Positions 10,975-17,866 of a DNA stretch of 57,912 nt are shown one piece after another; the first letter of the stretch is position 1; every line of letters begins with the position of its first letter. The notes under the pieces are model-generated. The model was not told the DNA's origin, ran no database searches, and was given only the letters and a program-made list of their open reading frames with translations. Both the position numbers and the translations under genes were made by a program. This stretch comes from an uncultured Mucispirillum sp. (GTDB lineage Bacteria > Chrysiogenota > Deferribacteres > Deferribacterales > Mucispirillaceae). The stretch spans positions 1-57,912 of the forward strand of contig CALUZC010000018.1 of the NCBI GenBank assembly GCA_944325215.1. The letters run 5' to 3'.

Positions 10975-13347
10975 TTAAAACATCTTTTTTAATTGGTCAA
11001 TCTCTCTGCATGCATTTTCATATATTTTTTTATTTTTTCCACTTAACTGCTGGTTATAAGGTATGCTTTGCCCTGTAGATAGACCACCTAATCCATTTGG
11101 AACATCTGCTAAAGAACTGCCATTATTTTGTTCAGAGCCACCGTTATTATTAAAAGATGGAGAGTTCAGGGCTTTTTCAATACCTGCAACAGAATCATTC
11201 ATCATACTTTCAATAATATTATCTGCCGTTTTTAATGCTTGTTTTTCAGCTTCTGGGTTATATGAAACAGCACCTTTACTTAATGGAGGCAGTGGCATAG
11301 ATGAAAATAATTCTGGTGCATTGCCATTTTTATCAAGAATTGATGATGAGACAGTTTCACTTCCTGGCACTATGCTGTTACTTCCACCACTATTACCAGC
11401 ATTATTTCCTGTATTTGCTGCAGTATTTACACCATTATTTTTTAAGTTATTTTTCTTATTGCTTGAAGGTATTCTTCTCATATCTTCAATTAATTCATAA
11501 GGATCATAAACATTTTCCACAAATTTTTTATTCATAAGCCTTCTAACTGGCTTTTCTAAGGCTTCTTTATTTTGTTCCATCTGTTTTTTTATTTCTGCTA
11601 ATTCTTTTGGGTTATTTTTAATATTATCAATATCATATAAAAGTTTATGGACACCTTTTTTGCCTTGAGCCATATTTTTCATTTTATTAATTAATTCTGG
11701 GCTTGTAGCTTTATTTGTTGCTACTGCCATGCCATATTTTTCAGGCTCCATAAACACTGCTTTTTTCCGTATTTCTGGGCTAATATTAGGGTTTTCTAAT
11801 GCTGCTAAACGTTCAGCTTCTTTCATAGCACTATCAGGCTCTCTAACCCAGTTTTCAGGAAACAGTTGGTTTAATTTTTCTTGTGGCATATTTTTATGTT
11901 TATATGCTGCACTTTTTACAACAGGGTTTTTATCTTCTGATAATTTTTCTATTGCTTCAGCTGGAGTATTAGGGTTTAAAGCAATGCCTTCCCTAATACA
12001 TTCATCAGGGTTATTAAGGTTATACAGCAGTTCTTCAGTTGGTATGCATGGGTTAGACATATATCTTTTATTAAATTCACAGTCTCTGTTTTTTCCTGCC
12101 GTAATTTTTCGCATTATTTCAGGTGTAAGGGCAGGGTTTTCCATCATATCATTATGCAGCCCTGAATAATTACTTAAATTATCCATCATTTCATTCGATA
12201 TAGATGGATTTTTAGCCAATGATTTTAATACCTTATTTGATTTATCTTTATATAATTCTTCTAGAACATCTTTAGGAGTATTTGGGTTTTCTGCAACGGC
12301 TGCCCTAATGGATTCATTATCTGATTTAGCTTTTTCTCGTAATAAATTTTCATCTGCAGAGCTGTTTTTTAAAGCCGATGTCTGCACTGGAGTATTAGCT
12401 AGTTCATTAATATATTCTTGGGCAAGGTTTGGATTTTCAGAAATTAATTTTAAAAGCTCATCATTTTCATCAAACCCATTTTTTATACCGTCAAAATATT
12501 TTTCTGCTGCTTTTTCCAGCACTTCTTTTTCTATTTGTGCTTCTTTAGGTGTTGAGTATTTATTAAGCTGAGAGCTAATTTCTGGAGCAGCTACAGCACC
12601 AGCACCAATTGCAGTTCCTAAAAGAGCAGCAGCGGCTAGTTTTTTTGCAAATGAAGAATTTGGTTTTGGTTTATCTTTATTTACTGGTTTTTGTTCTTTT
12701 ATGTTTTGTTTTTGTGGTTTCTCACTAACTTTGTTTGGTTTTTTATTTTCTATATTAGAAAGAGAATTTAAAGTTTCTGCCTTTTTTTTCTCAATATCTT
12801 CTACTTTATTATCAACAGGTTTTTCTGCCTGTTTTTTTTCTTCTTTTTTTACTGGTAAAGGTTCATTATTTTTACTAGTTTCTTCTTTTTTTTGTTCTTC
12901 TTTCTTTCTTTCATTTTCTTTTCTATTATTATAATCTTTAACAAGTTTTGCAGTATCTTTTTTATTAATACCAGCAACCACATAACCTGGAAAAAGTTGA
13001 TATACAGAGGGGGAAAGTCCTTTATTAATAAGCATTTTTTCAACGGCATCAATATCTTTTGATGGAACAATCAAGGCAGAAGCAGGTGATGAGGAAGCAT
13101 TATTTTCATTTACTAAAGTAGGCAGTAAATCATTTTCAATAATATTTTCCCATTCTTTTACTGCTGTTTTACCTGCTGGTTTTTCAACAGCAACAGCTAC
13201 ATAACCAGAATCATGTATGCTGTCATACATTTCAAATTTTTGTGTATTTTTTGAAGTTCCTTTTTCAGATAGTCTTGTTTGTATTCCAAAACGATTAAAA
13301 CTATCTGTAATATCATCTATAAATTTACCATTGCTTTTAAATAGCAT
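10975..13347 (-). CDS. Membrane-anchored LRV (leucine-rich variant) repeat protein
   Basis: 790 residues. Order: soluble N-terminal domain (~1-150), highly charged Lys/Glu/Pro-rich linker (~150-235), one hydrophobic segment (~236-256, AAAALLGTAIGAGAVAA), then ~300-560 with about eight ~24-residue repeats of the type NPNTPKDVLEELYKD...VLKSLAKNP, the LRV helical repeat. The C-terminal third is Asn/Gly/Ser-rich and ends in a short helix. GGAG 5 bases before the ATG fixes the start. Topology is probably N-terminus inside, repeats in the periplasm. Known LRV proteins have no common function; a binding scaffold is likely. Follows glgA after a hairpin. Confidence 0.75.
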   Translation of the reverse strand: MLFKSNGKFIDDITDSFNRFGIQTRLSEKGTSKNTQKFEMYDSIHDSGYVAVAVEKPAGKTAVKEWENIIENDLLPTLVNENNASSSPASALIVPSKDIDAVEKMLINKGLSPSVYQLFPGYVVAGINKKDTAKLVKDYNNRKENERKKEEQKKEETSKNNEPLPVKKEEKKQAEKPVDNKVEDIEKKKAETLNSLSNIENKKPNKVSEKPQKQNIKEQKPVNKDKPKPNSSFAKKLAAAALLGTAIGAGAVAAPEISSQLNKYSTPKEAQIEKEVLEKAAEKYFDGIKNGFDENDELLKLISENPNLAQEYINELANTPVQTSALKNSSADENLLREKAKSDNESIRAAVAENPNTPKDVLEELYKDKSNKVLKSLAKNPSISNEMMDNLSNYSGLHNDMMENPALTPEIMRKITAGKNRDCEFNKRYMSNPCIPTEELLYNLNNPDECIREGIALNPNTPAEAIEKLSEDKNPVVKSAAYKHKNMPQEKLNQLFPENWVREPDSAMKEAERLAALENPNISPEIRKKAVFMEPEKYGMAVATNKATSPELINKMKNMAQGKKGVHKLLYDIDNIKNNPKELAEIKKQMEQNKEALEKPVRRLMNKKFVENVYDPYELIEDMRRIPSSNKKNNLKNNGVNTAANTGNNAGNSGGSNSIVPGSETVSSSILDKNGNAPELFSSMPLPPLSKGAVSYNPEAEKQALKTADNIIESMMNDSVAGIEKALNSPSFNNNGGSEQNNGSSLADVPNGLGGLSTGQSIPYNQQLSGKNKKIYENACREIDQLKKMF

Positions 13348-14914: not shown

Positions 14915-16282
14915 TTACACACATTTTACAAGATTAGTATTAATATCCCTTATAACTTTTGTATTTTTCCATAAGTAATATGCAAGAAGTATTGTTATAA
15001 ATTCAGCAACTGGTACTGCTAAATAAAGCCCTGTTTCCTGTAATAGATATGGCAGTTGGAATATACATATTACAGGAAGTATAAGTCCCCTTAAAGCAGC
15101 AACCACTATTGAATGAAATGGTTTTTGTAATGCAGTAAAAGATGAGCTAAATACAATATTTAAACCAATAAATAAAAAGGCATATTTAGTATATTCAGCA
15201 AAAGCTAATGCAATTGCAAAGGCTTCTTTATTAACATTTCCATCTAGTAAAGTGGAGATTATTATTTCTGGTATAAAAGTAAATAATAAAAATGCGGCTC
15301 CACCAATTATCAGCACAGAAACACGTGAAAGCATTAATATTTTTGTAATTCTATTATATTGACCTGCACCATAGTTTATGGAAATCAGTGGCACTAACGA
15401 ATCCCCAATAGCATAGCAGAGCATATTAACAGTCCATAATGAAATATTTATAACAGCAAAAGCTTCCACACCATAAGTGCCAAGGCTTTCAACCATTATA
15501 TGGTTAAAAATATATGCAACAATAGCAACAGATGCTTCACTGAAAAGCTCTGAAGAGCCATTATATGCTGCAAAAAATATTTCTTCCCATTTGCCTATAT
15601 ATTTCGTTAGTTTTAGATTGCCTTTTTTTAATATAAAATGAAAAAGCAGTATAAAAGTTGAAACCATAAAAGATAAGCCTGTACCAAGGGCTGCTCCCTC
15701 TATACCCATATTCATTTTTACTATAAATATATAATCTAATATAAAGTTTAGTATAGCACCAGTAAGCACAGCAACAGAAGCTAGATATGGGTTGCCGTCT
15801 GTTCTAATCATAACAGATAAGGAATATTCTAAAGCCTGAAATAAGAAAAATAATGATACCATTTCAAGATATGGTTTTGCATACACCATTATTTCATCAT
15901 TAGCATGTAAAAACGATGCTACTTCATAACTAAAAAAGTAGCACACTACGGAAAAGAAAAGTGAAATAGTGGAAATAGATATCATCACTTTTGTAAAAAC
16001 AGCTCTTGCTTTAACTATTTTTTGCTCGCCAAGATATGTGCCAACAAGCACAGCAGCACCAATAGTAAGCATAATAGCAATACCAAATACTATTGTAATA
16101 AGCGGCATAATAATATTAACAGCAGCCAAAGCCACAGGGCTGACGTATTCGCTTACAAAATAAGCATCCACTAACGTAACAGAGCTCATAGCCATAATCC
16201 CAACCATATTAGGCAGGCTAAATTTTAAGAAAGTTTTATATATATTGCCTGAAGCAATTTCTAAATCATTATTTTTTATCAT
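14915..16282 (-). CDS. MATE-family efflux transporter (second of pair)
   Basis: 455 residues, about 12 membrane helices. MATE features: duplicated six-helix halves, FSLPNMVGIMAMSSVTLVDAYFVSEYV at the start, AALGTGLSF, and INYGAGQ at the half-boundary. Cation-coupled export of drugs or metabolites. AGGTGA sits 5 bases before the ATG; the gap to the upstream MATE gene is 4 bases, so both share one message. The paralogs may form a functional pair or have different substrates. Confidence 0.9.
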   Translation of the reverse strand: MIKNNDLEIASGNIYKTFLKFSLPNMVGIMAMSSVTLVDAYFVSEYVSPVALAAVNIIMPLITIVFGIAIMLTIGAAVLVGTYLGEQKIVKARAVFTKVMISISTISLFFSVVCYFFSYEVASFLHANDEIMVYAKPYLEMVSLFFLFQALEYSLSVMIRTDGNPYLASVAVLTGAILNFILDYIFIVKMNMGIEGAALGTGLSFMVSTFILLFHFILKKGNLKLTKYIGKWEEIFFAAYNGSSELFSEASVAIVAYIFNHIMVESLGTYGVEAFAVINISLWTVNMLCYAIGDSLVPLISINYGAGQYNRITKILMLSRVSVLIIGGAAFLLFTFIPEIIISTLLDGNVNKEAFAIALAFAEYTKYAFLFIGLNIVFSSSFTALQKPFHSIVVAALRGLILPVICIFQLPYLLQETGLYLAVPVAEFITILLAYYLWKNTKVIRDINTNLVKCV

Positions 16283-16286
16283 AATA

Positions 16287-17630
16287 TCACCTTTTTAATA
16301 AAAATTTGTAGCTTAAAACAAATAATGTTAAAGCCGTAATAAAAGTAACAATTTCACTAACTGGTATGGTTAAATATACACCTTTAATTTCCAGTAGTTT
16401 TGGAAGCAGTAAAAGCATAAAATAGGGCATAATTAATGAACGCAGGGAAGCTATCACTGCTGATTCTTTTGGTCTAAGCATCGCAGTAAAGTATGATGAA
16501 AACACCATATTAATACCGCTTAAAAAGAACGCCCATTTTACATAGCTCATAAATTCAATAGATATATTATAAGCATTAGATGATGTATCTTTAATAAATA
16601 AAGAAGTAAGCTCATGGCTGAAAAACAGTATTGTTAAAAATATTCCAAACCCATTTAACAGCGTGAAAAAAGCACCAGTTTTTAATATGTTTTTTATGCG
16701 GTCAAATTTTCCTGCCCCGTAATTTGTAGAAATAAGCGGGTTTAAAGTATCAGCAGCACCGTAGTTTACCATATTCCCAAGCCACATAATATAGTTTATA
16801 GCTGCAAAAGCTGCCACCCCTTCTTCCTGAGCATATTTCATCATTATTATATTAAATAGTGCCATAGTAATACCCACAGATATTTCATTTAAAAATTCTG
16901 ATAATCCATTGTAGCTTGTTTTAATAATATGGCTGAAATTACGCAGTTGAAGTGTAATTCTTAAATTTCCTTTTTTTCTTGCAAAGTGGATAAAAAGTAT
17001 TAAAAAGCTTACAATAAAAGAAATACCTGTAGCATAGGCTGCACCTTTTACACCCATATTTAGCACAGCAATAAATATGGCATCTAATATAATATTAGTT
17101 AATGCACCCATTATTAATGCAAGTGAAGCAAGCATAGGAAATCCGTCAACTCTTGCAAAAACAGATAGCCCATAACCTATGGTTGTAAAAAGAATAAAAG
17201 GTATTATGGTTTTTAAATATAAAGCTGCAATAGGTGTTGTTTTTTCGCTTCCACCAATAAGCATTATTATATTTTCAGTAAAAATAAATATAATAAGAGA
17301 TACAACAACAGTAATTAAAAATACTGCTATAATAGAGTTTGTAAAAACTTCATTAGCTGCTTTTATATTTTTTTCTCCAAAATATTTGCCTGCAGCAACA
17401 GCTCCACCTATCATTATCATCATAGATAAGCCCCATATAAAACTATATACAGGGTTTGCAGTGTTTACTGCTGCCAAACTTATTTCATCTACATAATTAC
17501 CAATAAATATGGCATCTACAATACCAGCAGATGATAAAAGCACAAGGCTTAATATATTTGGAACGGCAAACTTGTAAAAAAGTTTCGTTTCATTTATTAA
17601 TAAAATATTTGATTGTTTCTTCGTTTCCAT
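16287..17630 (-). CDS. MATE-family efflux transporter (first of pair)
   Basis: 447 residues from the ATG at 17630, about 12 helices, with MATE features FAVPNILSLVLLSSAGIVDAIFIGNYV, AAYATGISF and STNYGAGKFDR. A TTG seven codons upstream is open, but the ATG has AAGTGAT 4 bases before it, the same arrangement as the paralog. Preceded by a ~200-base leader with its own promoter, a 26-codon ORF and a hairpin, which suggests inducible translation. Confidence 0.9.
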   Translation of the reverse strand: METKKQSNILLINETKLFYKFAVPNILSLVLLSSAGIVDAIFIGNYVDEISLAAVNTANPVYSFIWGLSMMIMIGGAVAAGKYFGEKNIKAANEVFTNSIIAVFLITVVVSLIIFIFTENIIMLIGGSEKTTPIAALYLKTIIPFILFTTIGYGLSVFARVDGFPMLASLALIMGALTNIILDAIFIAVLNMGVKGAAYATGISFIVSFLILFIHFARKKGNLRITLQLRNFSHIIKTSYNGLSEFLNEISVGITMALFNIIMMKYAQEEGVAAFAAINYIMWLGNMVNYGAADTLNPLISTNYGAGKFDRIKNILKTGAFFTLLNGFGIFLTILFFSHELTSLFIKDTSSNAYNISIEFMSYVKWAFFLSGINMVFSSYFTAMLRPKESAVIASLRSLIMPYFMLLLLPKLLEIKGVYLTIPVSEIVTFITALTLFVLSYKFLLKR

Positions 17631-17649
17631 GATTATCACTTTTTTAGGC

Positions 17650-17677
17650 AAAATAGACGCAAAAAAGGCGCTATTTT
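17650..17677 (-). promoter_or_regulatory. Hairpin just upstream of the MATE ribosome site
   Basis: On the minus strand AAAATAGCGC and GCG-T-CTATTTT pair with one bulged T around a 7-base loop. It ends 8 bases before the weak ribosome site (17635-17641) of the first MATE gene. It could block initiation or be the attenuator element of the leader. Confidence 0.45.
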
Positions 17678-17737
17678 AACCCTTAATAAAATTTAATGCT
17701 TAAAATTTAAAAATTAAAATAAGATACAAAAATATTG

Positions 17738-17818
17738 TCAGATACAAAGTGGTGGTTTAATAAAAAACCTGTCAAAAGAAAGTTTTGAATAGTATGAGTC
17801 CTGTGGATATAAATTCAT
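17738..17818 (-). CDS. Putative leader peptide of the MATE operon
   Basis: A 26-codon ORF (ATG at 17818, TGA ending at 17738) with a perfect AGGTGA five bases upstream, a better ribosome site than that of the MATE gene itself. It starts with MNLYPQDSYY and ends with FFIKPPLCI; the Pro-Pro pair near the end is a known type of stall site. It lies ~13 bases after the predicted transcription start and 107 bases ahead of the MATE ATG. I infer a regulatory leader, as seen before several antibiotic-resistance genes; a plain small protein is the alternative. Confidence 0.5.
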   Translation of the reverse strand: MNLYPQDSYYSKLSFDRFFIKPPLCI

Positions 17819-17837
17819 AGTAGTCACCTATTTACTA

Positions 17838-17866
17838 ATTATATTATAAAAAAAGATAAAAGTCAA
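17838..17866 (-). promoter_or_regulatory. Promoter of the MATE-glgA run
   Basis: TTGACT (17861-17866) and TATAAT (17838-17843) on the minus strand with exactly 17 bases between; start expected near 17831, ~13 bases before the leader ORF. Confidence 0.65.

Follow-up and report, generated by a model that had tools for sequence, protein, structure and literature searches.

The analyzed window, a stretch of 57,912 nucleotides from a Mucispirillum genome, was found to carry a short ORF that opens the transcript of a tandem pair of MATE exporter genes. This ORF, in our view, probably encodes a leader peptide which acts in cis by ribosome arrest and controls the MATE1-MATE2 transcript. All named records with the same peptide core are likewise from Mucispirillum. 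The features of the locus are as follows.

17838..17866, minus strand: sigma-70-type promoter of the leader-MATE transcript, TTGACT-17-TATAAT, with 11 of 12 consensus matches (−35 box TTGACT at 17866-17861, 17-nt spacer, −10 box TATAAT at 17843-17838)
17824..17829, minus strand: ribosome site of the leader ORF, AGGTGA, read from the sequence
17738..17818, minus strand: leader ORF of 26 codons plus stop, MNLYPQDSYYSKLSFDRFFIKPPLCI (ATG at 17818, stop TGA at 17740-17738), conserved in nine of ten Mucispirillum species
17750..17776, minus strand: invariant core F15-D-R-F18-F-I20-K-P22-P23, with the same spacing as the arrest peptide FXXYXIWPP
17754..17769, minus strand: inverted repeat GGTTT-TTTATT-AAACC in codons 17-22, invariant in nine species except for one loop base
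17714..17737, minus strand: U-rich box CAATATTTTTGTATCTTATTTTAA after the leader stop, identified by alignment, partly kept in all species and of low complexity
17646..17682, minus strand: bulged hairpin whose end lies 15 nt upstream of the MATE ATG (17630), −12.3 kcal/mol, with 0 of 30 shuffles as good
17636..17641, minus strand: ribosome site of the first MATE gene, AAGTGA, read from the sequence and weaker than that of the leader
16287..17630, minus strand: first MATE exporter, 447 aa, PF01554, E 2.1e-34
14915..16282, minus strand: second MATE exporter, 455 aa, following the first after 4 nt, PF01554, E 5e-27

These assignments bear out the layout given in the initial annotation, in which a near-consensus promoter, a 26-codon ORF with an AGGTGA site, a hairpin, a weaker MATE site and paired MATE genes had been described; all were recovered on the minus strand. 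The promoter lies 19 nt from the leader ATG in the window, and the expected 5′ UTR of the leader-MATE transcript is about 13 nt. Sites resembling TTGACT-17-TATAAT were found six times in the window compared with 5.6 expected in shuffles, such that the promoter, taken by itself, is no better than chance and the case rests on the comparison between species. By this comparison, a TTGAC[A/T]-17-(TATAAT-like) promoter was found to be conserved in all nine leader-bearing species, 19-23 nt 5′ of the leader ATG. In one of these (L003, genome G001), unrelated DNA starts just 5′ of the −35 box and everything 3′ of this point is kept. The same genome (reverse strand) lacks the divergent transketolase promoter region 5′ of the leader promoter, and the unrelated upstream DNA ends an ORF (...RTYKHKETQVSIEDFLCKYDRFAYL); this difference is probably an insertion, a rearrangement or a chimeric contig end. 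The promoter, the frame of the ORF and the MATE pair after it are shared by nine species, and this conservation, together with the synonymous-only change in 19 leader codons detailed below, places the layout as a whole above chance. The two MATE genes are likely co-transcribed. Their nearest NCBIfam models were PRK09575 and FepA, with scores well below the respective cut-offs, and the neighbors of the locus were found to be genes of a transketolase, a glycogen/starch synthase, a repeat protein and (by sequence) an rRNA methyltransferase.

The distribution of the leader was examined among relatives. Nine of ten Mucispirillum genomes (ten species) carry the first MATE gene, always with the second, and the eight orthologues of the first are 60-94% identical to that of the window. 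In each of the nine, the leader ORF is single-copy and is located directly before the MATE pair, with 99-202 nt between its stop and the MATE start (107 nt in the window), an invariant place at the 5′ end of the MATE transcript. The tenth species has only remote MATE proteins and is devoid of both the leader ORF and a close MATE orthologue. The tandem MATE pair is kept in the genus and the family; in the other genera of the family the pair is present, and no leader ORF of this type was found. When 46 genomes of the order were searched with a profile of the leader peptide, the nine orthologues were retrieved at E < 1e-17, followed by noise from 0.006 up; this search provided no second leader copy or wider regulon, and the weak recurring matches, which were inspected in part, had no matching small ORF. 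A DNA pattern for FDRFFIKPP applied to 84,980 species was matched in Mucispirillum only. The leader had no counterpart in plasmids, phages, PDB or Pfam, and Rfam gave no match at gathering score in the window. In a GC-richer relative of another genus (G011:C68, L010), the transketolase-MATE arrangement is kept and a strong hairpin ends 15 nt before the MATE start, yet there is no leader ORF of the Mucispirillum kind.

The nine leader sequences, which encode peptides of 26-28 residues, were found to align gap-free over 24 codons. Of the first 24 codons, 19 (codons 1-6 and 12-24) specify amino acids that are invariant in all nine species (MNLYPQ ... KLSFDRFFIKPPL), with the peptide core remaining invariant while the MATE pumps diverge to 60% identity. 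When mapped on a tree of the MATE proteins, 11 nucleotide changes were inferred in these 19 codons and all were synonymous (P ~8e-8, given that about 23% of random changes are expected to be silent); the variable columns were distributed 1/0/9 over codon positions 1/2/3. Codons 7-11 displayed 18 changes and 9 amino-acid events and thus change freely in frame, so the region is not simply slow-evolving. The start codon and some ribosome site were kept in all nine species, the latter AGGTG or AAGGA-like in eight and GGGAT in L006. Because every change in the 19 codons is synonymous, the leader ORF is very likely translated and its peptide under selection. As a conserved in-frame short ORF at the 5′ end of a transcript, with translation deduced from selection, it is in this respect like the translated cis-acting leader peptides (uORF attenuators).

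A selected product of 26-28 aa could instead be a stable small protein that acts in trans, for example on the MATE pumps or some other partner to which it binds, and that only happens to share a transcript with the pumps. The amino-acid selection does extend to the N-terminal MNLYPQ, a segment that would have moved well along the exit tunnel by the time of a Pro-Pro stall, and trans-acting leader peptides are known, as described for peTrpL (PMC7298713). However, the leader was only ever found as the first element of the MATE transcript, its middle and tail are variable, it lacks an obvious transmembrane segment and matched nothing in Pfam or PDB, and the excess synonymous conservation of codons 12-24 is unexpected for a plain protein; we regard this explanation as unlikely. 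The peptide might also be processed into a signal or a ribosomally synthesized natural product that the MATE pumps export, given that the leader adjoins the pumps and that a role in natural-product export is associated with some MATE proteins (weak NCBIfam matches to WgkD, SolL, and GntT). To this reading we give the least credence, as no maturation enzyme or peptidase was recognized among the neighbor genes and the C-terminal tail of the peptide varies between species.

The codons themselves were likewise more conserved than expected. In codons 12-24, 8 of 13 codons were unchanged compared with 4.0 expected from amino-acid-matched positions of the MATE genes (P 0.001); AGG (Arg17) was invariant and GAC (Asp16) was present in eight of nine species, with AGG representing 25% of Arg codons and GAC 15% of Asp codons. 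The inverted repeat GGTTT-TTYATT-AAACC could serve as a small RNA hairpin or as a DNA/protein site; its stem (GGTTT-N6-AAACC) is invariant and hence provides no covariation signal either way. These findings would suit a locus that is mainly a nucleotide element, whether operator or RNA structure, in which the frame is incidental. From such an element, however, no adherence to the genetic code would be expected at codons 2-6 and 12-24, and all variation in the 19 codons is synonymous, with the start codon and ribosome site retained in all species. As a replacement for the peptide, a nucleotide element is thus quite improbable, though it may act in addition to it. Beyond the ORF, a U-rich box (AATATTTTTNTATNTT-like) was located 1-17 nt past the leader stop in all nine species and is a possible polymerase pause site, albeit of low complexity.

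The invariant peptide core was next compared with known arrest sequences. The peptide FXXYXIWPP was selected from random libraries in E. coli (Tanner et al. 2009, as presented in PMC13410324, PMC11669330, and PMC7897499) and is described as halting ribosomes of E. coli through a block of peptidyl transfer (PMC13410324; also PMC7897499), with little relief by EF-P reported for the full-length form (PMC11669330). The leader and FXXYXIWPP(P) share a short core that ends in Pro-Pro and has the spacing F-x-x-aromatic-x-I-x-P-P, with F15, F18, I20, P22, and P23 invariant in the nine species. They differ in that (i) FXXYXIWPP(P) is artificial and not a gene; (ii) the Trp before and the third Pro after its Pro pair are Lys21 and Leu24 in all nine leaders; and (iii) the leader has an invariant MNLYPQ start as well. 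Given Pro-Pro, the chance of the three other residues matching is ~4e-4, a value to be read as nearer 1e-2 since the match was a post hoc observation, with perhaps 20-30 known arrest motifs available for comparison. None of the 13 Pro-Pro sites in the proteins of the window match the FXXYXIWPP-like spacing. The likeness, to be expected about once in 100 by chance, is suggestive of arrest, and the Lys for Trp and Leu for third Pro replacements may make arrest weaker, or prevent it, in the absence of a ligand. After Leu24, the tail of the peptide varies (CI, FI, FTAD, HILF) as does the position of the stop codon, which places the critical site at Pro-Pro and not at the stop. The RAPP/RAPG arrest peptides ApdA, ApdP, and ApcA (PMC7897499) are similar to the leader in having Pro-Pro near the arrest point and in requiring upstream residues; by contrast, they are secreted or membrane-targeted proteins of 80-200 aa that monitor protein localization, whereas the leader has no such signal and carries IKPP, not RAPP. 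The EF-P of the organism (G000:C2:89233-89400) carries an Arg-type tip (HIKCGRGGA), which makes a lysyl-type modification as in E. coli improbable.

From the Pro-Pro pair and the FXXYXIWPP-like core, we infer a stall by which the leader would regulate the pumps. In the proposed mechanism, transcription would begin ~13 nt before the leader ORF and a ribosome would load at once. The nascent chain KLSFDRFFIKPP would slow or halt this ribosome once Pro22-Pro23 reach the peptidyl-transferase center, either intrinsically or in the presence of a small molecule or translation inhibitor. The stalled ribosome would then alter expression of the pumps across the spacer of 100-200 nt, with the output being (i) read-through of a spacer site at which transcription terminates or pauses; or (ii) access to the MATE start.

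The spacer was analyzed for elements that may connect such a stall to the MATE genes. The 10-bp bulged hairpin reported in the initial annotation is present, and was found to be the upper part of a longer hairpin (17682-17646) which ranks second among the 40 genes of the window at this pre-start position, with about one gene in eight having a comparable one. In seven of the nine species, the most stable hairpin of the spacer ends 14-26 nt before the MATE ATG, close to the MATE ribosome site, and surpasses nearly all shuffles in stability; L008 and L009 have a weak palindrome only. Its sequence differs between sub-clades with no compensatory pairs or covariation found, and folding of the whole leader-to-start region is not unusual (z −0.44). 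Conservation in relatives, on which the earlier proposal was to be judged, thus extends to the frame and the ribosome site of the leader and, in seven of nine species, to the position of the hairpin though not its sequence. Elsewhere in the window, the gene of an LRV-repeat protein (10975-13347), which follows glycogen synthase, has a stronger hairpin (−16.1 kcal/mol) 25 nt before its start.

Two attenuation mechanisms with defined RNA structures were considered for this hairpin. After the stem, a U-run is present in L005-L007 and six A in L001-L004, the window included; L008 and L009 have no hairpin with a U-run. A conserved intrinsic terminator was rejected on this basis, as the combination of hairpin and U-run is found in three species at most; transcription attenuation of this type, one of the two forms initially suggested, would fit L005-L007 at best and not the window. 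A conserved antiterminator was not found either. The other form, in which a stalled ribosome frees a structured downstream start, gained no support either. When a ribosome was modeled at Pro23, the predicted cost of opening the MATE ribosome site (AAGTGA or AGTGA in L001-L004; TAGGA in L005, L006, L008, and L009) was reduced by no more than ~1.2 kcal/mol, and mostly by less than 1, across the nine species. Complementarity between CACTTT (codons 23-25) and AAAGTG of the MATE site was found in L001, L003, and L004 only, with a change in opening energy of ~0.7-1.2 kcal/mol. By predicted folding, a downstream ribosome site that is unmasked by the stall or paired with the leader, as in erm-type translation attenuators, was not found, and erm-like unmasking was rejected as a conserved mechanism. 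What endures of the attenuation-leader reading is a translated and selected leader which heads the MATE transcript and has an arrest-like core, without the unmasking of a structured start.

Since no conserved pairing joins the leader and the MATE ribosome site, we lean slightly toward an output at the level of transcription. Rho-dependent or pausing-based control, as for mdtU (PMC7815308), would be conceivable, as Rho and EF-P are both encoded in the genome. The leader could alternatively sense nothing and only raise expression, through mRNA-protecting ribosome loading or through reinitiation; the strength of both the promoter and the ribosome site, right at the 5′ end, is consistent with this role, and leader genes have been proposed to help downstream translation by reinitiation (PMC4833913). 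Such a role does not require an invariant peptide core, however, and the stop-to-start distance of 99-202 nt is long for reinitiation, making this alternative very unlikely.

Among drug exporters, regulation by leader peptides is known from SMR, MFS, and ABC-type systems. The ribosome-arrest leader proposed here is similar to the mdtU uORF of mdtUJI in E. coli (PMC7815308), which controls an efflux pump, has 34 codons with a conserved C-terminal part and ends 106 nt before the exporter gene, as both uORFs end ~100 nt before the gene they precede. Unlike the MATE leader, mdtU belongs to an SMR spermidine exporter with a 278-nt 5′ UTR, is Rho-dependent and spermidine-responsive, and is predicted to pair with the ribosome site of its pump; there is no sequence likeness between the two. 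The BmrB leader of bmrCD in B. subtilis (PMC4191407) also heads a drug-exporter operon, but it is 53 aa in length, precedes an ABC exporter and has an intrinsic terminator inside the ORF, whereas the MATE leader is without a conserved terminator. The erm, msr(D), and mef leaders (PMC10314930, PMC4335068) share with the MATE leader a short ORF before a resistance determinant and stalling as a switch (proposed for the latter), yet have defined alternative hairpins or terminators that were not found at the MATE leader, and have no sequence likeness to it. In a search of the literature (open-licence papers), no leader peptide of a MATE pump was found, nor any in Mucispirillum, in agreement with the initial annotation, which knew of none for such pumps in this group.

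To our knowledge, arrest of the FxxYxIxPP type is otherwise known from laboratory selection only. We tentatively suggest, at somewhat less than even chances, that a natural arrest peptide of this type has evolved in Mucispirillum, where it would sense a tunnel-binding compound or proline-translation stress and switch on the MATE pair. The leader is short, very well conserved and from a gut organism, and it looks like a natural counterpart of the synthetic arrest peptide. If our interpretation is correct, this would be the first leader-peptide control of MATE pumps, in a little-studied phylum; and if stalling does occur, its inducer would reveal what the MATE pumps respond to.
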